Positions 31,221-43,983 of a stretch of DNA of 64,000 nucleotides are shown in pieces. This stretch comes from Methanolobus zinderi. Lineage in GTDB: Archaea; Halobacteriota; Methanosarcinia; Methanosarcinales; Methanosarcinaceae. Positions within the stretch are counted from its first letter, which is position 1, and each line of letters begins with the position of its first letter. The notes under the pieces are model-generated. The model was not told where the DNA came from. It worked only from the letters and a program-made list of their open reading frames with translations, and searched no databases. Location: contig NZ_CP058215.1 in assembly GCF_013388255.1 (NCBI RefSeq), positions 1,984,001 to 2,048,000 on the forward strand, read 5' to 3'. A program made the translations under genes and the position numbers.

Positions 31221-31577
31221 ATGTCAAAAGTAATGATCGTGGACGATGCCGCTTTTATGCGTATGGTCATCAAGGACATCCTGAAAAAAAACGGCCATGA
31301 AGTCGTAGCAGAATGTGTTGATGGATTAGATGCTGTTCAGAAATATCCGGAAGCAAAACCCGAACTCGTTTTCATGGACATAGTCATGCCAAATATGGAA
31401 GGCATAGATGCACTCAAGAAGATAATGGAGATGGATCCTGATGCAAAGGTAGTTATGTGCTCATCCATAGGGCAGCAGTCTGTAGTAACAGACGCCCTCA
31501 AATGCGGAGCTCAGGATTTCATAGTTAAACCGTTTGATGCTGCCAAGGTGCTTGAAGTAATCGGGAAAGTAATGTAA
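31221..31577 (+). CDS. cheY: Chemotaxis response regulator CheY
   Basis: 118 residues, a single receiver domain. The acidic pair Asp8-Asp9, phosphoacceptor Asp53 (LVFMDIVMPNMEG), Ser in CSSIG and Lys in FIVKPFD are all present. It is phosphorylated by CheA and carries the signal to the output. It is the first gene of the operon; its TAA is followed directly by the cheB ATG. Confidence 0.95.
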   Translation: MSKVMIVDDAAFMRMVIKDILKKNGHEVVAECVDGLDAVQKYPEAKPELVFMDIVMPNMEGIDALKKIMEMDPDAKVVMCSSIGQQSVVTDALKCGAQDFIVKPFDAAKVLEVIGKVM

Positions 31578-32675
31578 ATGACTATCAATGTTCTTGTAGT
31601 CGATGACTCGGCACTGATGCGCAAGGTTATCTCGGATATCCTCTCAGAAGACGAGGAATTAAAAGTAATAGCAACAGCCAGGAACGGACTTGATGCTGTG
31701 CAAAAAGTCGAAAGATTCAGACCTGATGTTGTTACCCTTGACGTCGAAATGCCGGAACTTGACGGTTTGCATGCACTCGGATATATTATGAGTGAATGCC
31801 CCACACCTGTGGTGATGCTCACAGCCGTCGATGAAAAGTCTGCAGAAAGAACATTGAGTGCTTTTGAATACGGAGCAGTTGACTTTATCCAGAAACCTTC
31901 CGGGAATATCAGCCTGAACATCTCAGACATAGCCAAAAATATCCGCCAGAAAGTGAAGATGGCAGCAAAGGTGGATCTTAAAAAACTTGAGTTCATGGAA
32001 GAGCAGGTTACCAAGTCCAGGGAGGACATTGGCAAAAAAAGGGAGAAAAAGCCTTTGACCAACCTGGGAAGCGTTAAAAGAAAACCTTTATCCAGGCAGA
32101 AGATACTCGCCATAGCCTCTTCTACCGGAGGACCCCGTGCACTCGAGCAGGTCATACCAAAGCTGCCCGGCAATCTAAACATACCTGTTGTTATAGTTCA
32201 GCATATGCCAGCCGGATTTACGGCTTCACTGGCACAGAGGCTTGATACGCAATCAAAACTCAAGGTATGTGAAGCAAAGGACGGAGAAACAGTCAGGAAC
32301 GGGGTTGTTTACCTGGCACCCGGCAATTTCCATATGGAGATAGTCCGGAAAAATATCAATGGAAGGGACAGGGAAGTAATCTCCCTGAATCAAAAACCCC
32401 GTGAGCAAGGGGTCAGACCCTGTGCGAATATTCTTTTCAAATCACTGGTGCCGATATACGGACAGAACATACTGTCTGTCATACTTACAGGAATGGGAGC
32501 CGACGGAGCAGATGGTGCGGAAGAGATAAAGAAGACCGGAGGAAAAGTGATCACTGAGGATGAAAAATCCTGCGTGGTTTACGGAATGCCAAAAGTTGCT
32601 GTTCAGCGTGGTCTCTCGGATAGTGTTGTGGCTCTTGAGAAAATATCGGATGAGATCGTAATGATGCTTAAATAA
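31578..32675 (+). CDS. cheB: Protein-glutamate methylesterase CheB
   Basis: 365 residues. The receiver domain occupies 1-120 (phosphoacceptor Asp55 in VTLDVEMPELDG). A charged linker leads to the methylesterase domain with its triad: Ser in AIASSTGGPRALE, His in VVIVQHMPAGFT and Asp in GMGADGADG. It removes methyl groups from, and deamidates, chemoreceptors. No receptor gene is in the window. Confidence 0.96.
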   Translation: MTINVLVVDDSALMRKVISDILSEDEELKVIATARNGLDAVQKVERFRPDVVTLDVEMPELDGLHALGYIMSECPTPVVMLTAVDEKSAERTLSAFEYGAVDFIQKPSGNISLNISDIAKNIRQKVKMAAKVDLKKLEFMEEQVTKSREDIGKKREKKPLTNLGSVKRKPLSRQKILAIASSTGGPRALEQVIPKLPGNLNIPVVIVQHMPAGFTASLAQRLDTQSKLKVCEAKDGETVRNGVVYLAPGNFHMEIVRKNINGRDREVISLNQKPREQGVRPCANILFKSLVPIYGQNILSVILTGMGADGADGAEEIKKTGGKVITEDEKSCVVYGMPKVAVQRGLSDSVVALEKISDEIVMMLK

Positions 32676-32737: not shown

Positions 32738-34768
32738 ATGGACATGTCAGAATACAAAGATATCTTTAAAGCTGAGTCCGAAGAACATCTGCAGCAGTTA
32801 AATGAATCTCTTCTGGGGCTTGAACAAAACCCAAAGGAGATGGAATTCATCAATACAATGTTCCGTTCGGCACATACTCTCAAGGGTATGTCGGCTACCA
32901 TGGGCTTTGGAACAATTGCCGAGCTGACCCATGAGATGGAGAACCTCATGGACATGATCCGTAAATGCCAGGTCGCTGTCAACGATTCACTCATCGATAT
33001 CCTGTTTGAATGTCTCGACACCCTTGAAGCCCTTGTAGATAATGTGGACAGCGATGAAGAGGTAAACATATCCCACCTTCAGGCCACACTTGCGCAGGCC
33101 ATGGACGGTACGATCTGCGCTGCAGAGAGCATAACAGATGCTGCAGAAGACCTTGCAGCCAGCCAGATAGAACCTGATTCATCAGATGAGGAAATGGTTC
33201 TGCCTGAGATCGATCTTTCGAATGAGGAAAAGGAATCTATTGAAAGTGCAAAGGAGGATGGTTACAATATATCTTCGCTGAAGGTAGTCCTCGACGAGTC
33301 CTGTGTATTGAAATCCGCAAGATCAACACTGGTCCTCATAAATATCTCAAAGCTGGGACAGATCATCAAATGCATTCCCTCTGAAACAGACCTGGAAGAT
33401 GAAAAGTTTGACAGGGATTTCACAATCATCTATTCAACAAAAGAAAGCGATGAGACCATTGAAGAAGCCATCGGAAAAATCTCTGAAGTAAAGGATATTG
33501 AGATCACACCCCTGTATATCTGTGACAGCGGAGAAAAAGAGGAAAGTTCCGAAGAGAAAAAGGCAAGCAGTTCAGCCGGAGAGAGTACTTCTGCTGTCAA
33601 GAGGCCGGATACTGTAAAGAGCATACAGAGTGTCAGGGTGAACATCGAACGCCTGGACAACCTGATGAACTTGGTGGGTGAGCTTATCATAAACAAGATC
33701 AGGCTCAACCAGCTTGCATCCGACCTTAATGCAAAACACCTGGATGAATCGCTGGCCAATCTTGACCGGCTTACAAACGAGATCCAGACAGAGGTCATGG
33801 AATCCAGGATGGTACCCATCGACCAGATATTCAGCAGGTTCCCGAGGATGGTCAGGGACCTTGCAAAATCAGAAGGTAAACAGATCAACCTTGTTATCGA
33901 AGGTAAAGAAATCGAACTTGACAGAACGGTACTCGATGAGATTGGCGATCCGCTGGTCCACCTTCTTAGAAATGCAGTGGACCATGGCATAGAACCTGCA
34001 GAAGAACGTACAAAAGCAGGGAAACCCGAAGCAGGATTTGTCGGTCTTTCCGCATCAAGGCAGCGTAACAGCGTCCTCATTGAAGTCGAGGATGACGGCA
34101 AGGGTATGGACCCGGAACACCTCAGGGACGTCGCTGTTAAGAAAGGCATACTGAGCCGCGAGGAGGTTGACAAGCTCTCGGACACAGAGGCACTTAACCT
34201 GATATTCTATCCCGGATTCAGCGGTGCAAAGGTGATCACTGATGTCTCTGGAAGAGGAGTCGGGATGGATGCTGTCAAGACCAAGATAGAAGCACTTGGA
34301 GGAAGTGTGAAGGTCAGCTCCGTACAGGGGCAGGGAAGTTCCATAAAACTGCAGCTTCCGCTCACCGTGGCTATTATCCAGTCCCTCATGGTCAAGGTTG
34401 CAAAAGAGACCTATGCAATCCCGCTGGCCAATGTGGTCAGGGATGTGGGTATCAAAGCAAGTGAAATCAAAACCATAGAAGGAAAAGAGGTTATTATGCT
34501 GCGCGGGGAAGTTCTTCCCCTTTTAAGACTCCATGATGTTCTTGATTCCCCTTATGAGACAGAAGAGAAGGAGAATCTTATTGTTGTTGTCGTTGAGAGA
34601 ATGGGTCAAAACATCGGATTTGTAGTTGACCAGCTTCTCGGACAGCAGGAAGTAATTATCAAAACACTTGACAACAAGCTTTTGAAAAACACAAAAGGAT
34701 TTGCAGGGGCAACCATCCTGGGAGATGGAAGTGTTGCACTGATCCTTGATATTGCAACTTTGATATAA
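32738..34768 (+). CDS. cheA: Chemotaxis histidine kinase CheA
   Basis: 676 residues. P1 phosphotransfer domain at 1-105 with His46 (FRSAHTLKGM); an acidic linker; a P2-like domain at about 170-260; P3 dimerisation near 290-350 (SVRVNIERLDNLMNLVGELII); the P4 ATPase with N box HLLRNAVDHGIEP, G1 VEDDGKGMD, F box FYPGFSGA and G2 GRGVGMDAVK; and P5 CheW-like at about 540-676. It autophosphorylates and feeds CheY and CheB. With no cheW in the operon, receptor coupling must use CheW encoded elsewhere or the P5 domain alone. Start could be ATG 32738 or 32744. Confidence 0.96.
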   Translation: MDMSEYKDIFKAESEEHLQQLNESLLGLEQNPKEMEFINTMFRSAHTLKGMSATMGFGTIAELTHEMENLMDMIRKCQVAVNDSLIDILFECLDTLEALVDNVDSDEEVNISHLQATLAQAMDGTICAAESITDAAEDLAASQIEPDSSDEEMVLPEIDLSNEEKESIESAKEDGYNISSLKVVLDESCVLKSARSTLVLINISKLGQIIKCIPSETDLEDEKFDRDFTIIYSTKESDETIEEAIGKISEVKDIEITPLYICDSGEKEESSEEKKASSSAGESTSAVKRPDTVKSIQSVRVNIERLDNLMNLVGELIINKIRLNQLASDLNAKHLDESLANLDRLTNEIQTEVMESRMVPIDQIFSRFPRMVRDLAKSEGKQINLVIEGKEIELDRTVLDEIGDPLVHLLRNAVDHGIEPAEERTKAGKPEAGFVGLSASRQRNSVLIEVEDDGKGMDPEHLRDVAVKKGILSREEVDKLSDTEALNLIFYPGFSGAKVITDVSGRGVGMDAVKTKIEALGGSVKVSSVQGQGSSIKLQLPLTVAIIQSLMVKVAKETYAIPLANVVRDVGIKASEIKTIEGKEVIMLRGEVLPLLRLHDVLDSPYETEEKENLIVVVVERMGQNIGFVVDQLLGQQEVIIKTLDNKLLKNTKGFAGATILGDGSVALILDIATLI

Positions 34769-34786: not shown

Positions 34787-35401
34787 ATGGCTGAAATGGA
34801 CGAAATGGCAAAAGGAGCATTCCAGGAAGCAGGAAATATCGGGATGGGGCATCTGGCAACTTCTCTTTCCAAGATGGTGAACAGAGAGGTTAAGATCGAT
34901 ATACCCAGCGTGGAAATGCTCTCACTGGAAGATATTATTTCCAAGGCATCCGAAGGAAAACAAAAAACAGTAGTAGGAATTCACCTCCAGCTATCCGGTG
35001 ATGTGACCGGAGGTACACTTATATTGCTCCCTAAATTCTCCGCGCTTTCATTTTCCGACCTGTTAATGAAAAAACCGATCGGCACTACCAACAAAATAGA
35101 AGAGATGCAGATGCGCAAGCTGAGAGAAATGGGAGTGCGCCTCTGTAGTTCCTATATGCGTGTGGTCAACGAATTCCTCGGACTCAACCTGAAAGTGGGT
35201 GATCCGACCATGGAAGTGAACATGGAAGGAGTTTCAGAGTTCATACAAAAAGAAATAGGAGAACTTGCTGACGATTTCATAGTTGTCAAAGGAGAATGCT
35301 TCATTCCCTCTACCAATTCCAGAAACGAATTCAATATGCTTTTCGAACCTGAGGCCAGTGATGTGATCATGGCAGCAGTGATGAAGAAGATGATGGGATG
35401 A
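34787..35401 (+). CDS. CheC-family protein A
   Basis: 204 residues of the CheC/FliY phosphatase family. CheC active sites follow D/S-x3-E-x2-N with Pro 23 positions later. Site one is present as EAGN followed by Pro, but with Gly in place of the leading Asp/Ser. Site two reads EMGV, so the catalytic Asn is lost. It may dephosphorylate CheY-P weakly or act mainly by binding CheD or other partners. GAGGGT precedes the ATG. It is between cheA and the FtsA-like gene. Confidence 0.85.
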   Translation: MAEMDEMAKGAFQEAGNIGMGHLATSLSKMVNREVKIDIPSVEMLSLEDIISKASEGKQKTVVGIHLQLSGDVTGGTLILLPKFSALSFSDLLMKKPIGTTNKIEEMQMRKLREMGVRLCSSYMRVVNEFLGLNLKVGDPTMEVNMEGVSEFIQKEIGELADDFIVVKGECFIPSTNSRNEFNMLFEPEASDVIMAAVMKKMMG

Positions 35402-35406
35402 TATGA

Positions 35407-37530
35407 GTGAGTACCACCCACTTTGCCCTGGATATCGGAACCAGGACCGTTGTGGGGCTCATTGTAGAAGGAGAAGAGCCTCTGGAAATAAAAGCCGCAT
35501 GCATACTCGAGCATAATCAGCGCAGTATGCATGACGGACAGATCCATGATGTTGACAGGGTCGCAGAGGTTGTACAGAAGGTAAAGAAAGAACTTGAAGA
35601 GACCATCGGTCATGAACTTACCAGAGCCTCTGTGGCAGTTGCAGGAAGAGCTCTGAAAACGTCCAAGGTGAAACTGTCCATTGACCTGCCCTATGGAGAG
35701 ATCAGCAAAAAGGAGATCTCCGAGCTTGAATTTGAAGCGGTTGCAAGGGCAGGCAGTGAGATCGATTGTGATGAAAGGTTCAACTGTGTGGGCTATTCTG
35801 TTGTGGGTTATGAACTTGAGGGACAGAAGATATCAAGCCTTGAAGGACATACCGGGAGTTCCATATCGGTTGAGCTGCTTGCAACATTCCTGCCTGAAAC
35901 CGTTGTGAACAGTATGTTCGCAGTGCTTGACAGATGCGGCCTTGAAGCGGAGAGTGTCACACTGGAACCCATAGCCGCACTGAATATCGCAATCCCCAGG
36001 GACACACGCAAACTCAATCTTGCGCTGGTGGATATCGGTGCGGGTACATCGGATATTGCAGTCACCAGTGAAGGAACTGTCGTGGGCTATGGCATGGTCC
36101 CTGAAGCCGGGGACGAGATCACTGATTTTATTTGTGAGCATTATCTGCTTGATTTTAAGAAGGGTGAGGAGATCAAGCAACAACTGGTAGATGAAGATAA
36201 GGTGGAAATAAAGGACATTTTCGGTGTGGGAACCGAAATACAGACCTCTGAGATCATTTCTGTTATTGAAGATGAGGTTGACAGGCTTGCCGGCCATATC
36301 GCCGAAGAGATAATTTCCATCAATGGAAACCCCCCAAGGGCGGTTGTACTTGTTGGCGGAGGGTCACAGACAGCTACGCTCAAAGAAAAACTCGCTGAAC
36401 ATCTGGGCATACCTGTGCAGCGAATTGGTTCAAGACTTCCGGAAATGATAGAAGATCTGGAAGACAGGACAGGCAAAGTAACTGGTGCTGATATGATCAC
36501 TCCTCTGGGAATAGCCCTTACATCCATACACAACGACGGAATTGATTTTATCGAAGCTTCAGTGAACGGTACGAATGTCCACCTGATGGACCTCAATGGT
36601 CTTACGGTTATGGATGCACTCGTTGCCACCCGTATCAAAAGAATGTATCCACGTCCCGGCATGGCTCTTACATTGAAGGTCAATTCAGAATTCGTGACCA
36701 TAGAAGGAGAGACAGGACAGCATGCAAGTATCAGGCTTGATGGTAATAAAGCAAGTCTCGGAGATCCTATCAGCAGTGGTTCGCGTATTGAATTCAATCC
36801 TCCTGTTGACGGGAAGGATGCCAGCATAACAGTACGTGATCTGGCAGCCAGACAGGGAATAACAATGAAAGTTGATGTCACGATCAATGGCAGGAAGGAA
36901 AAGCAAACGCCTCTTCTTCGTGTAAATGGTGAGCGAGTAGAACCCGATACAGAGATACCTGACAGGGCCGAGCTTATCATCGCACCTGCAACTGTAAAAG
37001 AAGTACTGCACACCATGGCTGACAGTGATCCGGAAGAGAAGCTTCAGATCACACTTAACAGGAGAAGTAAAGTCCTTGACAGGGCGGAATATACCGTGGA
37101 ACTTAACGGGGAAGCTGTTGTCCCGAAGTATTTCGATGATACTGTCATCAAAGACGGAGATGTTCTGCATGTCAGCAAAAAGGACATACACTGGACATAT
37201 GCTGACCTCATTGACATTCCAAAGGCAGGAAAGAATATCAGTGTCATACTGAACAGTGAGAAAGTTACCTTCGAAGGGACTGAAGGAGCCATTAAAGCCA
37301 ATGGAAAGAGGGTACTTCCCTCGTACAGGGTCAACGATAGGGATAACATCGTCCTGGAAGACGGATCCGAGAAGGAACCCATACTTTCTGATCTTTTCGA
37401 ATTTATAGATATCAGACGTGAAGAGCTTGTCGGAAAGAGCATACGTCTGTTTGTTAACAATCATCAGGCACGCTTTACCACACCTCTCAAAGACGGTGAC
37501 AGGGTGAATATAGAATTCCCGGAGGTTTGA
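35407..37530 (+). CDS. Large FtsA/PilM-like actin-fold protein with beta-grasp-like repeats
   Basis: 707 residues. Residues 1 to about 370 are an actin-like ATPase of the FtsA/PilM group: phosphate 1 FALDIGTRTVVG, SHS2-like insertion, phosphate 2 LALVDIGAGTSDIAV, adenosine motif AVVLVGGGSQT. From about 375 the chain has three or four ThiS/ubiquitin-like units, each ending in the pattern VNG..V.....I.DGD.V.I (DDTVIKDGDVLHVSK, TPLKDGDRVNIEF). Large FtsA-domain proteins of this shape are known mainly from Firmicutes, so lateral transfer is my inference. The start is GTG 35407, five bases after the CheC-A stop. Its place between che genes argues for a role in placing or polarising the signalling array or its output machine, not cell division. 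Confidence 0.85.
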   Translation: MSTTHFALDIGTRTVVGLIVEGEEPLEIKAACILEHNQRSMHDGQIHDVDRVAEVVQKVKKELEETIGHELTRASVAVAGRALKTSKVKLSIDLPYGEISKKEISELEFEAVARAGSEIDCDERFNCVGYSVVGYELEGQKISSLEGHTGSSISVELLATFLPETVVNSMFAVLDRCGLEAESVTLEPIAALNIAIPRDTRKLNLALVDIGAGTSDIAVTSEGTVVGYGMVPEAGDEITDFICEHYLLDFKKGEEIKQQLVDEDKVEIKDIFGVGTEIQTSEIISVIEDEVDRLAGHIAEEIISINGNPPRAVVLVGGGSQTATLKEKLAEHLGIPVQRIGSRLPEMIEDLEDRTGKVTGADMITPLGIALTSIHNDGIDFIEASVNGTNVHLMDLNGLTVMDALVATRIKRMYPRPGMALTLKVNSEFVTIEGETGQHASIRLDGNKASLGDPISSGSRIEFNPPVDGKDASITVRDLAARQGITMKVDVTINGRKEKQTPLLRVNGERVEPDTEIPDRAELIIAPATVKEVLHTMADSDPEEKLQITLNRRSKVLDRAEYTVELNGEAVVPKYFDDTVIKDGDVLHVSKKDIHWTYADLIDIPKAGKNISVILNSEKVTFEGTEGAIKANGKRVLPSYRVNDRDNIVLEDGSEKEPILSDLFEFIDIRREELVGKSIRLFVNNHQARFTTPLKDGDRVNIEFPEV

Positions 37531-38370
37531 ATGATGCTAAAAGCTGCAGCAAACAAAAAATCTAAAGAGGATGCAGATTTTGCATCACTCAAGAATATAA
37601 TAAAGACCAGACTTGGATTCAACTGTGAATACTACAAGGACTCCCATTTCAGGAGAAGGATCGATGTCAGACTAAGAGCCACCGGCTCTGAAAATTTCGG
37701 AGAGTATATCCAGGTCCTCAAGCAGGACCAGAACGAGCAGGATATTCTTCTGGAAACCCTCACGGTCAATGTCACGAATTTCTTCAGGAATTCCGAGGTT
37801 TATGATATTATAGAAAAAGAGGTACTTCCTGCCGTGATCAAGTCGAAGGGTATCGGTATGAACAAGTCCATAAAAATATGGAGTGCCGGCTGTTCCATAG
37901 GTGTGGAGGCATATTCCATTGCAATGCTGTTCCACCACATCCTTGGAAACAGGATAGGCAGATATAATATCAGCATAACCGGAACCGATATTGACAAGGC
38001 AAGTCTACAGCATGCACGAAACGGCATATACAGCGAAGTAGAGATGAAGGACGTCAGACCTGATTTTATGCAGAGATACTTCGTAAAAGAAGGAAATCAG
38101 TACCATATCAAGGACGAGCTCAAAAAGATGACCCGCTTCAAACCACATGATATGATATCGGGTCCCAAGATGGGTGGTTTTGATATCATTTTCTGCAGAA
38201 ATGTCACGATATATTTTGAAAAAGAACTACAGGAAAAGCTCTATATGAAATTCTATGAAGGCCTCAATAAGGATGGGTTCTTTGTAATGGGAAAAACGGA
38301 AACACTCCTGGGACCATCTAAAGACCTTTTCAGGTCCTATAATGCAAAGGAGAGAATATACGCCAAATAA
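37531..38370 (+). CDS. cheR: Chemoreceptor methyltransferase CheR
   Basis: 279 residues. The N-terminal helical CheR domain (FRRRIDVRLRATG) is followed by a SAM-dependent methyltransferase domain with motif I IKIWSAGCSIGVEAYSIAML, the TGTDIDKASLQHAR acidic loop and DIIFCRNVTIYFEK. It methylates receptor glutamates. GGAGGTTTGA lies before the tandem ATGs, and the gene starts at the base after the FtsA-like stop, so translation is coupled. Lacks the TPR or beta-subdomain additions of some CheR proteins. Confidence 0.95.
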   Translation: MMLKAAANKKSKEDADFASLKNIIKTRLGFNCEYYKDSHFRRRIDVRLRATGSENFGEYIQVLKQDQNEQDILLETLTVNVTNFFRNSEVYDIIEKEVLPAVIKSKGIGMNKSIKIWSAGCSIGVEAYSIAMLFHHILGNRIGRYNISITGTDIDKASLQHARNGIYSEVEMKDVRPDFMQRYFVKEGNQYHIKDELKKMTRFKPHDMISGPKMGGFDIIFCRNVTIYFEKELQEKLYMKFYEGLNKDGFFVMGKTETLLGPSKDLFRSYNAKERIYAK

Positions 38371-38424
38371 GCTTCAATAAGAGCTCCTGTAGCTGAAAAA
38401 CAATCAATATAATAGAGGGATTAA

Positions 38425-39033
38425 ATGAGGATAGAAGAGCTGAATGAACTGGAAGCCAGTGCATTAAGGGAAATCGTCAATATTGGCGTTGGAAATGCAG
38501 TAACCTCACTTTCTAAAATGATCGGTAAGCAGATCAAGATCGAGGTCCCTGAACTTAAGATCGAGCGCATAGAGAAGGTACCTGAGATCGCAGGAGGTGC
38601 CGATACTGTTGTCTCAGGAGTGATAATGCATGTTGACGGGGACATTAACGGCTACATCATGATGTTGCTGTCAAAGGAAACCGCAGAAGCAATTTGTGCC
38701 ACTATCAGCGGAGAAGAAGAGGTAGACATCTTCAATGAACTGAATCAGTCAATGATCGAAGAAGTGGGACATATACTTGCAGGATCTTATGTCAGTTCCC
38801 TTTCCGAATTCCTGGGACTTGAACTTAGGATTTCACCACCCATGCAGACCTTTGATATGCTCGGAGCCATCATGGACCACATACTTATCGAGATGAGCAG
38901 GAATGTGGAAAGCACTCTTCTTTTTGATACTTTCTTCACACTGGAAGGTCACAGGATGGAAGGCATACTGCTCACATTGTTCGATCCCGAATCAATGGAC
39001 AAAATACTGAACAGGATTTCCGAGATGGTTTGA
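38425..39033 (+). CDS. CheC-family protein B
   Basis: 202 residues. Site one is complete (S-x3-EIVN with Pro 23 later, ALREIVNIGVGNAVTSL). Site two reads EVGH, with His in place of the catalytic Asn. A single-site CheC should still dephosphorylate CheY-P; the binding partner CheD is encoded three genes on. GAGGGA precedes the ATG. The N-terminal 90 residues are closest of the four to textbook CheC. Confidence 0.87.
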   Translation: MRIEELNELEASALREIVNIGVGNAVTSLSKMIGKQIKIEVPELKIERIEKVPEIAGGADTVVSGVIMHVDGDINGYIMMLLSKETAEAICATISGEEEVDIFNELNQSMIEEVGHILAGSYVSSLSEFLGLELRISPPMQTFDMLGAIMDHILIEMSRNVESTLLFDTFFTLEGHRMEGILLTLFDPESMDKILNRISEMV

Positions 39034-39046
39034 GAGGAGATAAAAA

Positions 39047-39658
39047 ATGAACATTGTACTTGACAAATTCTATTATGATGCACTGAACGAAGTAGGCAAT
39101 ATAGGAATGGGAAATGCTACCACAGCCCTTTCCCAGCTTGTAGGAAAATCAGTCAGTGTCAGTGGATCGGCGTTTACCTTACTCGGCCTGAACGATATCT
39201 CCACAGAACACGAATACAACCGGATCGGAGCTATAGTTAAGGTGGTGGGAGACCTGAACGGTGGTTTCCTTCTCATGCTTAACCAGAAACATTCCGATTC
39301 ACTGTCAGAGATGTTGCTTGAGCAAAACGAACACGAGGACGATGGTTATATGCGAAGGTCAGTGGTGGTGGAAGTGGCAAATATCCTTGCAGGTTCATAT
39401 TATAATGCATTATCCAAGTTCCTTGATCTTTCGGTAATACCTTCGATCCCGATAATATCTGAGGGAAGCCCGGATGATCTGCTGAAAAAATGCAGTCAGC
39501 ACTTCAACGGGAAAATCGAGCATGTCATGGGGCTTACTACACTTTTCGAAATCCAGTCAGAGGACCAGTACCAGAGTCTGAGCGGTGACATGTACATGCT
39601 GATGGACTCCGGCTCCATGAAGACGATCCTTAACAGAATAGACACAATGCGTACCTGA
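39047..39658 (+). CDS. cheC: CheC-family protein C
   Basis: 203 residues. Both catalytic Asn residues are kept: site one D-x3-EVGN (but Ser in place of the trailing Pro) and site two S-x3-EVAN with Pro 23 later (VVEVANILAGSYYNAL). It is the most likely fully active phosphatase of the four paralogues. It begins 13 bases after CheC-B and ends just before cheD, its usual partner gene. Confidence 0.88.
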   Translation: MNIVLDKFYYDALNEVGNIGMGNATTALSQLVGKSVSVSGSAFTLLGLNDISTEHEYNRIGAIVKVVGDLNGGFLLMLNQKHSDSLSEMLLEQNEHEDDGYMRRSVVVEVANILAGSYYNALSKFLDLSVIPSIPIISEGSPDDLLKKCSQHFNGKIEHVMGLTTLFEIQSEDQYQSLSGDMYMLMDSGSMKTILNRIDTMRT

Positions 39659-39663
39659 ATAAT

Positions 39664-40137
39664 ATGATAATAGTTGGGATGGCAGACAGCGCAGTAGCAA
39701 AAAAACCCGCAAAGATCACAACCCTTGGATTGGGTTCGTGTGTAGGCATAGCCTTGTATGACAAGAGAAGCTGTGTCGGCGGAATGGTGCACATAATGCT
39801 TCCCAGCGTAGAGAATGCAAGGTCAAAGGACAATGCAGCCAAGTTTGCAGACACGGGAATACCCCATCTGCTTGATTGCATGCTGGCAGAAGGTGCCAGC
39901 AAGAGTGCGATCAAAGCCAAGATCGCAGGCGGTGCAAGGATGTTTTCCTTTAATTCGAACGCACAGCTGAATATAGGAGAGCGCAACGTGGTCGCGACAA
40001 AGGAAGTCCTGAGAAAACTGAGGATACCTATTATCGCCGAGGATACCGGTGCAAACTATGGTCGTACGATCGTACTCGACACTGAAAACGGTAAACTTAC
40101 GGTGAAAAGTGCACTGAAAGGTGAAAAAATATATTAA
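39664..40137 (+). CDS. cheD: Chemoreceptor glutamine deamidase CheD
   Basis: 157 residues. The catalytic Cys and His lie in TTLGLGSCVGIALYD and GGMVHIMLP, with the conserved Thr/Ser region before the Cys; the C-terminal KIAGGARMFSF is typical. CheD deamidates receptors and stimulates CheC, its activity being tuned by CheC binding. ATG 39664 lies five bases after the CheC-C stop. Confidence 0.95.
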   Translation: MIIVGMADSAVAKKPAKITTLGLGSCVGIALYDKRSCVGGMVHIMLPSVENARSKDNAAKFADTGIPHLLDCMLAEGASKSAIKAKIAGGARMFSFNSNAQLNIGERNVVATKEVLRKLRIPIIAEDTGANYGRTIVLDTENGKLTVKSALKGEKIY

Positions 40138-40141
40138 CATA

Positions 40142-40151
40142 GATATATATT
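40142..40151 (+). promoter_or_regulatory. Possible internal TATA box in the che operon
   Basis: GATATATATT lies just after cheD, about 50 bases before the next start, and would give a leader of roughly 18 bases holding AAGGTGG. It could provide separate expression of the last three genes. Weak evidence: AT-rich gaps are common here. Confidence 0.3.
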
Positions 40152-40192
40152 ACTTAATAAGAGAAGAATATAAAAACTAAGGTGGCAGCAAG

Positions 40193-41407
40193 ATGTTAAC
40201 TTCGGACACTACACTGATCTACATATACATACTCTTCATTTCGGTTTCACTGGCAACCGGAATGGCAGCCATATATTTCTGGGTGAGGGTGCATCTCGAG
40301 ACCCAGAAGGGATCTATAGCCTGGCTGCTCCTGGCACTTACTGCCGTATTCCTTATCACCACATCAATCTTCTCATCGGTCGCTGTAAGCAACTCCGACC
40401 CTCTGGTCACAGAAACGATACTGATATTCCTTGGATTCTGGGGTGCTGTCTATACAAGTATCTTTGCTGCCGCCGGTTTTATGATGTTCAATGCATTCAG
40501 GACGATTCCCCGTGAAAAACTTGGAGATTTCCTGCTAGAAGGCATGGTCTTCCAGAAAGGTCAGATATTAAAATCCGCATGCGGAAAGAACTGTTCGATA
40601 TGTGAAGAATATACAGGGGAAAGATGTCATGGATGTATCCCGAAAAACAAGGAGGGAGAGGAGAGCTGTTCCATTTACGATTGTGTTGTTGAAAAAGGAA
40701 TGACATCCTGTATGGACTGTGACAGCAACACCAACTGTGATACCTATAATTACGAGATAGTCCAGTGTCCACTGAACAATGATATCGGAACTCTTCCTGA
40801 ACTTGAACATACAGCCAGTATATTCAAGCGCTCAACACTTCTGGAATACACACCCCAGGCAAGATATGAGGATGCGGTTATTGAAATTTGCCTCAGGTTC
40901 TATGGAGAGATGGTGAACACGGTTCTTGTATCCACCCAGCCACGCACCGCGCTCTACAAGGAGAAGCTTGGCGATCTCATCGATATCGGTGCCATGAAGT
41001 TTATCGAGATATCTACCACTGCAACGACTGTCAGTGAAGAGAACGGCATAATTAAGCTGCCTGTTAAGGAGCTTGACAAGTTCTTCGACCTGACCGCCAG
41101 ACTACCAAAGGACTGTGCTGTTGTTTTTGAACCTGTTACCCAGCTTATTCTAAGCGAAGGTGAGACAAAAACCTATGATTTCATGTCCGGTATGGTTGAA
41201 AAATTCAATTCCAGTGAACTGATACTTATCGGGCTGATCAATAAAACAGCCCATGAAGAAAAAACGGTCTCGAGGTTTGAAGGACTCTTCCTCAATCTTG
41301 CCGAGCTGGTAAAGAACCGGATACGCATTGTAAAGGGAGGGAAAGAAGAATACATCCGCTTCTTTGTAGGAGAGAAATTCTACATGGAAGAAACAGAGGA
41401 TACTTAA
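40193..41407 (+). CDS. Membrane protein with Cys-rich (DUF3795-like) cluster and degenerate ATPase-like domain
   Basis: 404 residues. Three membrane helices occupy about residues 7-30, 42-65 and 75-102. Eleven cysteines then lie between 130 and 192 (CGKNCSIC, CHGC, CSIYDC, CMDC), a spacing like DUF3795 metal-binding proteins; zinc or an Fe-S cluster is possible. Residues of about 205-400 resemble the degenerate KaiC/DUF835-type fold (VLVSTQPRTALYKEKLG, CAVVFEPVTQLILSEGETKTYDF, LILIGLINKTAHEEK) but lack a Walker A. This order of parts is unknown to me. Its place in the operon suggests a membrane redox or metal sensor, or a docking platform, for the che system. Confidence 0.7.
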   Translation: MLTSDTTLIYIYILFISVSLATGMAAIYFWVRVHLETQKGSIAWLLLALTAVFLITTSIFSSVAVSNSDPLVTETILIFLGFWGAVYTSIFAAAGFMMFNAFRTIPREKLGDFLLEGMVFQKGQILKSACGKNCSICEEYTGERCHGCIPKNKEGEESCSIYDCVVEKGMTSCMDCDSNTNCDTYNYEIVQCPLNNDIGTLPELEHTASIFKRSTLLEYTPQARYEDAVIEICLRFYGEMVNTVLVSTQPRTALYKEKLGDLIDIGAMKFIEISTTATTVSEENGIIKLPVKELDKFFDLTARLPKDCAVVFEPVTQLILSEGETKTYDFMSGMVEKFNSSELILIGLINKTAHEEKTVSRFEGLFLNLAELVKNRIRIVKGGKEEYIRFFVGEKFYMEETEDT

Positions 41408-41441
41408 AAAACGTTATCCAATGAAAGAAAAAGGTCAGAAA

Positions 41442-42065
41442 ATGCAAGAACTTGATAGCCTGGAGATAGATGCCCTGAAGGAGATCGGAAGCACCGGTAT
41501 GGGAAATGCTACCACAGCACTCTCTAAACTGGTTGGAAGACCTGTCAGGCTGAATCTATCGGATGCCAGAATGTTCAGTCTGCAGAGTATTGCAGCCTCG
41601 ATCCCCGATACAATTACAATGACAGGGGTGATGGTTAATACGGGAGGCAAGCTCAAAGGTGCGGCTGTGCTCTTATTTGAATTCGCTAACTCGGTCCTCC
41701 TGAGCGATCTGATGCTTGACAGTAATGAGATTACAGGTGACCCTTCAATGAACGAATCCGCACTTTGCGAACTCGGCAATGTTTTCACCGGCTCTTACTT
41801 TAGTGCTCTTTCTTCTTTCCTTGACCTTGGAATATATCAGGACCCGCCGGTAATTACTATCGGACCGGCACAGGAGATATTTGAAAACGCATTCTCACGT
41901 ATGGGAGTGAAACCGACTGGAATACTGACCATCGAAACAATGTTCATGGTACACAATGCAGGAGACGGAACAGGACTCAACACAATATACGGGGACATGT
42001 TCCTGCTTCTGGAACCTTCATCCACCCAAGGGCTGCGTGCTTCAATACAAAAGCTCCTGGCCTGA
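41442..42065 (+). CDS. CheC-family protein D
   Basis: 207 residues from ATG 41442, chosen over ATG 41421 because AAAGGTCAG lies just before it and the other CheC proteins start at this point. Site one reads EIGS, so its catalytic Asn is lost; site two is intact (S-x3-ELGN, Pro 23 later, CELGNVFTGSYFSAL). It mirrors CheC-B, which kept site one and lost site two. It follows the membrane protein by about 34 bases. Confidence 0.85.
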   Translation: MQELDSLEIDALKEIGSTGMGNATTALSKLVGRPVRLNLSDARMFSLQSIAASIPDTITMTGVMVNTGGKLKGAAVLLFEFANSVLLSDLMLDSNEITGDPSMNESALCELGNVFTGSYFSALSSFLDLGIYQDPPVITIGPAQEIFENAFSRMGVKPTGILTIETMFMVHNAGDGTGLNTIYGDMFLLLEPSSTQGLRASIQKLLA

Positions 42066-42740: not shown

Positions 42741-43367
42741 ATGATGGACATCGCGATATATTCACTTGTTGACGATATGGTCAGCAAAGCAGGAACGGAG
42801 GGTGTTGTAGAATACTGGCTCCGTGTGGGTGAAAGCTATGCGGAAAGGATGGGAAAGGAAGCTTATGTCGGCTGGCCCGCCTTTAACGTGGCAATGAAAG
42901 AGGGCAGGACCTCTCTGACAGTGGAAGGCGAGGTAAACGTACTGACCGACCTTGCGATCATAGACAAGGACGGGGATGTGATCGGATATGTCTATGCTCT
43001 CAAGACATGTCCCATGGCACCGACCATGAGAAGATACATATCCAGAATCGGCCCGATCCCGGATTCTGATACTGACGTTGCTGACAGTTACAATAACCGC
43101 ATCAGGGATTCTGCTGTTTCAAACTATTGCATTACACACCAGAAGTTCAGGGAAGTTGCAGCTAACAATATCACCGTTGCAAAACAGGCTCTTGAATGTC
43201 TCCAGCTTGCAAACAAGGGAATGACAGGAGACGTAAAGATGGTGCCTGAGAACCTGGCAAGGATAAACGTGGACGAGCGCCACATCAAAAGTATACTCCG
43301 CAGTGCATCATGTGTCTTTGCTCTGATAGTCAAAGGTAAAAGTGCAGGCGAAGAAATAATCGAGTGA
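42741..43367 (+). CDS. Unknown family, member 1 of adjacent paralogous pair
   Basis: 208 residues, soluble. It shares with the next gene a conserved core: TCPMAPTMRRYISRIG, then D-x-YN..I..SA....C..HQ.(F/Y)R..A..ITV, then L.....A..G..TG......PE, and a C-terminal SCVFALIVKG. Conserved Cys (three) and His-Gln could bind a metal, haem or organic ligand. The middle (NVLTDLAIIDKDGDVIGYVYAL) has a strand pattern like a small-molecule-binding domain. I do not recognise the family. It stands directly after the che operon with its own promoter. Confidence 0.7.
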   Translation: MMDIAIYSLVDDMVSKAGTEGVVEYWLRVGESYAERMGKEAYVGWPAFNVAMKEGRTSLTVEGEVNVLTDLAIIDKDGDVIGYVYALKTCPMAPTMRRYISRIGPIPDSDTDVADSYNNRIRDSAVSNYCITHQKFREVAANNITVAKQALECLQLANKGMTGDVKMVPENLARINVDERHIKSILRSASCVFALIVKGKSAGEEIIE

Positions 43368-43377
43368 TTGTGATAAT

Positions 43378-43983
43378 ATGGCCGAGAATATTGAATCAAA
43401 TCCTTTTGTTGATGTTTCTGTATATCTCTTCTTTGAGGATATTTCAGATAAACAGGGAGTAGAAAGTTTCACCAATTACATGGTAGGACAGGCACAGTCC
43501 CTTGCAAAATCAGTCCCCGAGGAGGAATATGAGACATGGGATGACTTCGCAAGTGCTGTCGTTAGCGGTGAATCCGTATTCTCATCCTTTGAGAGTATAG
43601 AGCAGATCAGCAAATGCGGCTTCGTTACCAATATATGCCCCTTTTCCAAGGCTATCAGGGAATACATAAAGAGAATAGGCAATTTCAATCCTGTACACAT
43701 CGAAGCCACTGACCATTACAACCACACGATCCAGCCATCCGCCGCCCACAGTGCATGTATGATGCATCAGACCTACAGAAGAGAGGTCGCAAAAAGAATA
43801 ACTGTCGGAGGAAAACCACTCCAGTATGCACAGATAGGTGCAAAGGCATACACCGGAGAGATAGCACTTCCACCTGAATCATGGAAGAAGGTACTTCTGG
43901 AGAAAGCAGGCATTTCAGAGACACAGGGATTCATGGAAATGCGAGAGAACAGCTGCCTTTACCTGCTATATGTTGAAGGCTGA
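43378..43983 (+). CDS. Unknown family, member 2 of adjacent paralogous pair
   Basis: 201 residues, a clear paralogue of the preceding protein: ICPFSKAIREYIKRIG, DHYNHTIQPSA, CMMHQTYRREVAKRITV, AKAYTGEIALPPE and SCLYLLYVEG line up in order. Its N-terminal 85 residues differ more (YETWDDFASAVVSGESVF), so the two probably form a heterodimer or bind different ligands. It starts ten bases after member 1, so both are made together. A hairpin terminator follows. Confidence 0.7.
   Translation: MAENIESNPFVDVSVYLFFEDISDKQGVESFTNYMVGQAQSLAKSVPEEEYETWDDFASAVVSGESVFSSFESIEQISKCGFVTNICPFSKAIREYIKRIGNFNPVHIEATDHYNHTIQPSAAHSACMMHQTYRREVAKRITVGGKPLQYAQIGAKAYTGEIALPPESWKKVLLEKAGISETQGFMEMRENSCLYLLYVEG

Follow-up and report, generated by a model that had tools for sequence, protein, structure and literature searches.

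What would a large actin-fold protein do inside a chemotaxis operon of an archaeon? The question is raised by a 64,000-nucleotide stretch of the Methanolobus zinderi genome (NZ_CP058215.1, positions 1,984,001 to 2,048,000; hereafter the window), in which a single open frame of 707 codons occupies the slot between cheC1 and cheR of a che operon, so that the operon membership claimed in the original prediction was borne out (Table 1). An in-frame TGA stands immediately 5' of the GTG at 35407, which means that the gene starts at that codon or downstream of it. Only 5 nt separate the cheC1 stop from this start, and the TGA of the gene abuts the ATG of cheR with a gap of 0 nt. Based on the data below, we are very confident in two things taken jointly, namely that the product belongs to a family of FtsA-type ATPases and that the gene was acquired from bacteria.

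Table 1. Coordinates of the gene, its predicted protein features, and the surrounding che operon (window numbering).
Feature	Position	Strand	Evidence
Gene for FtsA-type actin-fold ATPase with five-unit β-grasp tail, 707 aa, GTG start	35407..37530	+	ORF confirmed
ATPase core, residues 1-375, FtsA/PilM fold including 1C subdomain	35407..36531	+	FtsA Z 34.6, PilM Z 29.7
PHOSPHATE-1 motif HFALDIGTRTVVGLI, residues 5-19	35419..35463	+	D9, G11, T12 invariant in 39 family members
1C (SHS2-like) subdomain, residues ~84-163	35656..35895	+	Model secondary structure and FtsA alignment
E187 of CONNECT-1 motif LEPIAALN, at MreB glutamate position	35965..35967	+	E in 39/39 members
PHOSPHATE-2 motif ALVDIGAGTSDIAV, residues 206-219	36022..36063	+	D209, G211, G213, T214 invariant
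ADENOSINE motif AVVLVGGGSQ, residues 312-321	36340..36369	+	G317, G318 in 39/39; G319 in 38/39
β-grasp unit 1, residues 376-470, including the hairpin and helix that lead into it	36532..36816	+	Unit-unit profile matches, P 95-98%
β-grasp unit 2, residues 471-529	36817..36993	+	Unit-unit profile matches
β-grasp unit 3, residues 530-597; strongest Pfam ThiS match at 507-588	36994..37197	+	Pfam, profile matches
β-grasp unit 4, residues 598-656	37198..37374	+	Unit-unit profile matches
Unit 5, residues 657-707, short; PILSDLFEF...EELVGK...ARFTTPL	37375..37527	+	Best conserved within genus
cheY	31221..31577	+	Pfam Response_reg E 5e-29
cheB	31578..32675	+	Domain scan
cheA: Hpt, P2, H-kinase_dim, HATPase, CheW domains	32738..34768	+	Domain scan
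cheC1, upstream neighbour in every archaeal copy with flank read	34787..35401	+	Pfam
cheR, downstream neighbour in every archaeal copy	37531..38370	+	Domain scan, flanks
cheC2 and cheC3	38425..39658	+	Pfam
cheD	39664..40137	+	Domain scan
Protein with DUF3795 segment, kept in operon	40193..41407	+	Pfam
cheC4	41421..42065	+	Pfam

The assignment of the N-terminal half to an actin fold of the FtsA/PilM type, made originally from the sequence, was confirmed by profile searches, by the PDB, and by modelling. Among the Pfam matches to residues 1-375 were PilM_2 (residues 8-259, E 1.3e-9), FtsA (residues 206-342, E 3.2e-9), and MreB, while the best NCBIfam match was ftsA (residues 7-355, E 8.5e-31) and a phmmer search of the PDB matched FtsA (E 1e-14). 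PilM_2 matched all 36 family members. With 36 relatives as input, AlphaFold gave a model with an FtsA fold (mean pLDDT 84.5, pTM 0.58), which replaced a weaker one from 16 close relatives (mean pLDDT 73); structure prediction, proposed as a check on the actin fold, thus upheld it. The best fold match of the modelled core was FtsA (Z 34.6 over 360 residues), with PilM at Z 29.7, EutJ at Z 25.8, and MreB at Z 25.6. The actin-like ATPase motifs PHOSPHATE-1, CONNECT-1, PHOSPHATE-2, and ADENOSINE were invariant or nearly so across 39 members, and alignment placed at the position of E187 a glutamate in both of the two MreB sequences and Q, E, Q, and A in the four FtsA sequences. The retention of these motifs together with E187 favours a core that probably hydrolyses ATP over a dead one.

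Of the top families, EutJ superposed on the core with the lowest rmsd (2.7 Å over 247 residues, 25% identity) and was also matched by profile. These values, along with an E187 kept as in MreB, would suit an Hsp70/EutJ-like chaperone that assembles a sensory complex, but the 1C subdomain is FtsA/PilM-like and no peptide-binding domain was recognised, and we regard such a chaperone as highly improbable, the least probable of the alternatives weighed here.

The C-terminal half had been predicted to hold three or four ThiS-like units ending in DGD motifs. The ThiS-like character stood (Pfam ThiS, E 4.4e-12), but the units number five, and a literal DGD occurs only in units 3 and 5, with DGD, HGD, or PGD common at these sites in relatives. 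When the profile of the tail was compared with itself, off-diagonal repeats appeared with E values down to 7e-24 and all pairs of the five units matched at P 95-98%. Across 36 family members, Pfam matched ThiS in 17, TGS in 15, and Ub-Mut7C in 17, all of them β-grasp domains. The structure-library comparison covered the core; for the tail, the assessment relied on sequence profiles and on the secondary structure of the model. The tail units resemble those of ThiS, MoaD, and TGS proteins in sequence profile; in contrast to the carriers, however, none of the 36 members ends in Gly-Gly (the Methanolobus protein ends in IEFPEV), so no sulfur-carrier chemistry is expected and a sulfur carrier of the ThiS/MoaD type was ruled out. 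The simplest reading of the tail is that of a putative binding arm. Within the genus, mean pairwise identity reached 80% in unit 5 and 74% in the core but fell to 36-50% in units 2-4. No other segment of the protein is as well conserved within the genus as unit 5, which may on that account be the main contact of the tail. The fast evolution of units 2-4 counts against a role in the Che system.

The actin fold with its 1C subdomain is common to this protein, FtsA, and PilM, and the ATP motifs are shared with FtsA, but the protein is neither an FtsA nor a PilM proper. The FtsA profile (TIGR01174) scored 107.3 bits against a curated cut-off of 175.85, the model has no amphipathic C-terminal helix such as FtsA has, five β-grasp units are added, and the family forms a separate clade. 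The PilM profile (TIGR01175) scored lower than that of FtsA, with 62.6 bits against a cut-off of 133, and here too the tail is extra. That the protein is an FtsA-like FtsZ anchor, recruited from bacteria as a part of the divisome, would fit the family score and the fold matches, in both of which FtsA came out best; the missed cut-off, a modelled chain that ends in a β-strand unit, the che context of the gene, and the real FtsA that Thermotogota also carry beside FtsZ (clusters 17 and 18, identified by eye) all speak against it, and we consider it very improbable. A PilM-like role as platform, on the cytoplasmic side, for a type IV pilus or the archaellum is hardly more probable. It would agree with the PilM fold and its 1C subdomain, with the PilM_2 match in every family member, and with a PilM annotation on the Anoxybacillus sequence described below, but the PilM cut-off is missed by far, FtsA scores higher, and no PilN/PilO-like gene was recognised beside the gene or among the operon proteins scanned. 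The β-grasp tail likewise stands against it, since PilM is not known to have one. The PilM-like pilus part of the original prediction was not upheld on these grounds, no pilus-assembly gene being recognised in the operon.

The nearest relatives are bacterial. Large FtsA-domain proteins had been expected mostly in Firmicutes, and this was right as far as Bacillota relatives exist, but relatives are also near-universal in Thermotogota, in which 79 of 103 genomes gave a strong match (E below 1e-80), mostly full-length at ~700 aa. The Bacillota sample comprised two sequences, both from plasmid-collection records: one from Anoxybacillus amylolyticus (WP_066327715.1, 37%, annotated PilM) and one from Acetoanaerobium noterae. 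The Methanolobus protein was 33-38% identical to its bacterial relatives and co-linear with them over its full length, through core and tail, and the bacterial proteins, annotated as "FtsA" or "PilM", have the same core, tail, and invariant motifs. In a tree of the ATPase half, the family was monophyletic and apart from FtsA, MreB, and PilM-like sequences; true PilM was thinly represented (by HofM and a single PilM-like protein from Thermotogota, both long-branched), and the order of FtsA, PilM, and the family is not settled by it. A sequence initially taken for Neisseria PilM is FtsA by its motif, and served as FtsA in the tree. The archaeal copies, from the genus of the window and a sister genus, formed one clade (UFB 99) that branches from within the bacterial sequences, and the phylogeny proposed as a check thus did not place them with vertically inherited archaeal proteins. 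In GC and GC3 the gene matches its neighbours, by which a recent import was rejected; with base composition fully adapted, the transfer must be old or ameliorated, and the case for it rests on the tree and the distribution. No relative was found in a scan of viral contigs for a viral origin.

The bacterial genes keep other company. In Thermotogota, mutS2 lay directly 5' of the gene in 18 of the 21 loci examined, with acpS following in 8 loci and no che operon near; this context, characteristic of Thermotogota members but not a defining trait of the family, is absent in archaea, where cheC1 and cheR take its place, and the Bacillota members differ too, the Anoxybacillus gene lying between the housekeeping neighbours aroA/ccpA and ytxJ. 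In three Thermotogota loci (L133, L135, and L136), only a few genes separate the mutS2-linked copy from an ftsA-ftsZ-pilB-like cluster, recognised by eye, so that in bacteria the protein might have some connection with division or pili. Since che linkage is missing in the bacterial relatives, the protein originally had a different job, one that it may still do, which argues against a Che role. In the main rival explanation, the gene is a passenger that retains a bacterial housekeeping function (envelope, division, or DNA-related) and merely shares the che promoter. The bacterial gene neighbourhoods favour it, as does the whole-length co-linearity with bacterial proteins, by which the ancestral biochemistry was probably preserved.

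The distribution in archaea is narrow and the position constant. A genome-contig scan identified Methanolobus species as the hosts; outside Methanosarcinaceae, the sole match was a Thermotogaceae MAG. Within the archaeal family, the gene was present in 26 of 112 genomes and 2 of 14 genera, that is, in 25 of 27 genomes of the Methanolobus genus (one copy internally deleted) and in one genome of the sister genus g118; a phylum sample of 393 genomes had it in 1 of 136 genera. Every archaeal copy lies exactly between cheC1 and cheR, and none was found elsewhere. The operon order cheY-cheB-cheA-cheC1-cheR is common to three genera that lack the gene (g12, g14, and g18) and to G020, a member of the genus likewise without it, and in all of these cheC1 adjoins cheR. 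Since gene-less relatives have the two genes adjacent and carriers have the gene exactly between them, we concluded that the che operon was already in place in these archaea when the bacterial gene entered it. The presence of the operon without the gene in G020 and these genera also means that the gene is dispensable to the operon. In a tree of che genes, g118 fell outside g1, g18, and g12 (supports 79-100). With the sister genus outside gene-less genera, losses or segment exchange must be added to the insertion, and either one early insertion was followed by several losses or a segment of the operon was exchanged later.

G011, a genome of the genus with neither che operon nor MCP, has no copy of the gene. 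In G017, a MAG with no detectable MCP, the copy (L036, 6768-7415) is cut to 216 aa by in-frame loss of approximately residues 105-589, which represents either degeneration or assembly collapse. An intact copy was found in none of the 2 MCP-less genomes of the genus (G011 and G017) and in 24 of the 25 with MCPs (Fisher P 0.009), a test that comprises two events only, among genomes related to the rest, with one MAG that is maybe misassembled. The dN/dS ratio against an 80% identical relative was 0.06 for the core and 0.14 for the tail, clear indications of purifying selection. The genetic linkage of the gene to the Che system is strong. The single slot, the want of a copy in the genome without a che operon, and the tight junctions at both ends of the gene stand against a mere sharer of the che promoter, which we consider unlikely.

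The operon is of the CheF-less che type of Methanosarcinaceae, with an orthologous cheY-cheB-cheA-cheR order and no CheF. In archaea, CheF is the adaptor that connects CheY-P with the archaellum switch (PMC9126983), and che2 of Methanosarcina is described as the only kind of archaeal che region that lacks it, with motor control left open (PMC2666748). The che2 operon and that of Methanolobus are alike in gene order, with orthologous proteins about 45-64% identical; Methanolobus differs in having cheC1 and the inserted gene, neither of which occurs in the Methanosarcina-type loci read (g16/g17, assignment inferred). CheF was not found in the genome of the window, and the Methanolobus genus gave no full-length CheF matches, only short partial ones. 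The short matches cover profile positions 20-86, in the N-terminal part of CheF, and fell in ORFs of ~400 aa away from the che operon in G001, G007, G019, and G237, possibly encoding a divergent CheF-like adaptor. Other genera have full CheF matches near another CheR, which is only ~35-38% similar. With ten matches to archaellin-family genes and four MCPs in the genome of the window, parts of a taxis system exist.

The inserted protein could then stand in for CheF, receiving signals from CheY-P or from CheC/CheD and passing them to the archaellum switch. The lack of CheF in a genome with archaellins and MCPs, and the motor control left open for che2, would be accounted for, but g18, g14, and g12 have the operon and archaellins with no full CheF match and no copy of the gene, and the protein has no sequence match to CheF in Pfam. 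We regard this alternative as improbable.

Other features of the operon were also observed. Four CheC-type genes, cheC1 to cheC4, lie within 34787-42065; several relatives have fewer, a separate cheC3 being absent in G020, G017, and other genera. The 404-aa protein with the DUF3795 segment has an N-terminus that is hydrophobic by eye and a Cys-rich segment, and it is found in the operons of g1, g18, and g118. At the 3' end of the operon are two adjacent paralogues of 208 and 201 aa (42741-43367 and 43378-43983, plus strand), 26% identical to each other (E 5e-29) and without a Pfam or NCBIfam family. They are ~80-97% identical across g1, g12, g14, g18, and g118, far above the Che proteins, and neither was found in those g16/g17 loci that were read. 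A CxxH pattern is retained in each (CITHQ, CMMHQ), as is a cysteine in TCP/ICP, and the pair might serve the CheF-less che system as a sensor or output that binds a cofactor.

We tentatively favour an ATP-gated scaffold or adaptor of the Che complex as the role of the gene product, a reading a little short of probable that rests on operon position, co-loss, and fold. FtsA and PilM take the short cytoplasmic tail of a membrane protein into the cleft between 1A and 1C, and FtsA so bound forms double filaments (PMC7613929). With the same core, a long β-grasp arm, and a site in the middle of a che operon, a scaffold or adaptor is the simplest model. An ancestor within Methanosarcinaceae acquired the gene from a bacterium; its place became the slot between cheC1 and cheR of a resident CheF-less operon, and it persisted in Methanolobus and one sister-genus genome. 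The core would bind and probably hydrolyse ATP, and may oligomerise or change shape as FtsA and PilM do. The tail, above all unit 5, might dock on CheC, CheR, CheD, or CheA, and the protein could thereby assemble or place the sensory complex, or couple it to the archaellum, without CheF. That it acts as a spatial organiser for the array, as first proposed, we put forward as a hypothesis.

FtsA-like homologues in archaea have been reported for Methanopyri only (PMC8178401). The Methanopyri protein is likewise a bacterial FtsA-type protein in an archaeon, but the Methanolobus protein differs from it in family, in its long tail, and in lying in a che operon. Our literature search, which combined FtsA/PilM with chemotaxis, Thermotoga, MutS2, ThiS, and Methanolobus, returned no account of the family or of a link to che. 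The family itself is already present, though uncharacterised, in bacteria, and both the host domain and the functional context seen here are new for it; in the many Thermotogota and in the Bacillota that have it, the same protein carries the misleading labels FtsA or PilM. Capture followed by retention at one exact place suggests a working part of the sensing system; the fuller claim, that a captured ATPase of the bacterial actin superfamily is an integral scaffold or motor-coupling part of a CheF-less archaeal chemosensory system, is possible but doubtful. For the placement of archaeal chemosensory arrays, MinD/ParA are the only candidates discussed in PMC6509185, and the gene offers a concrete, deletable candidate for two questions, that of array placement and that of CheF-less output to the motor. 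If the claim is true, a cytoskeletal element would work inside a signalling operon, and would answer how CheF-less che systems assemble or reach their output.
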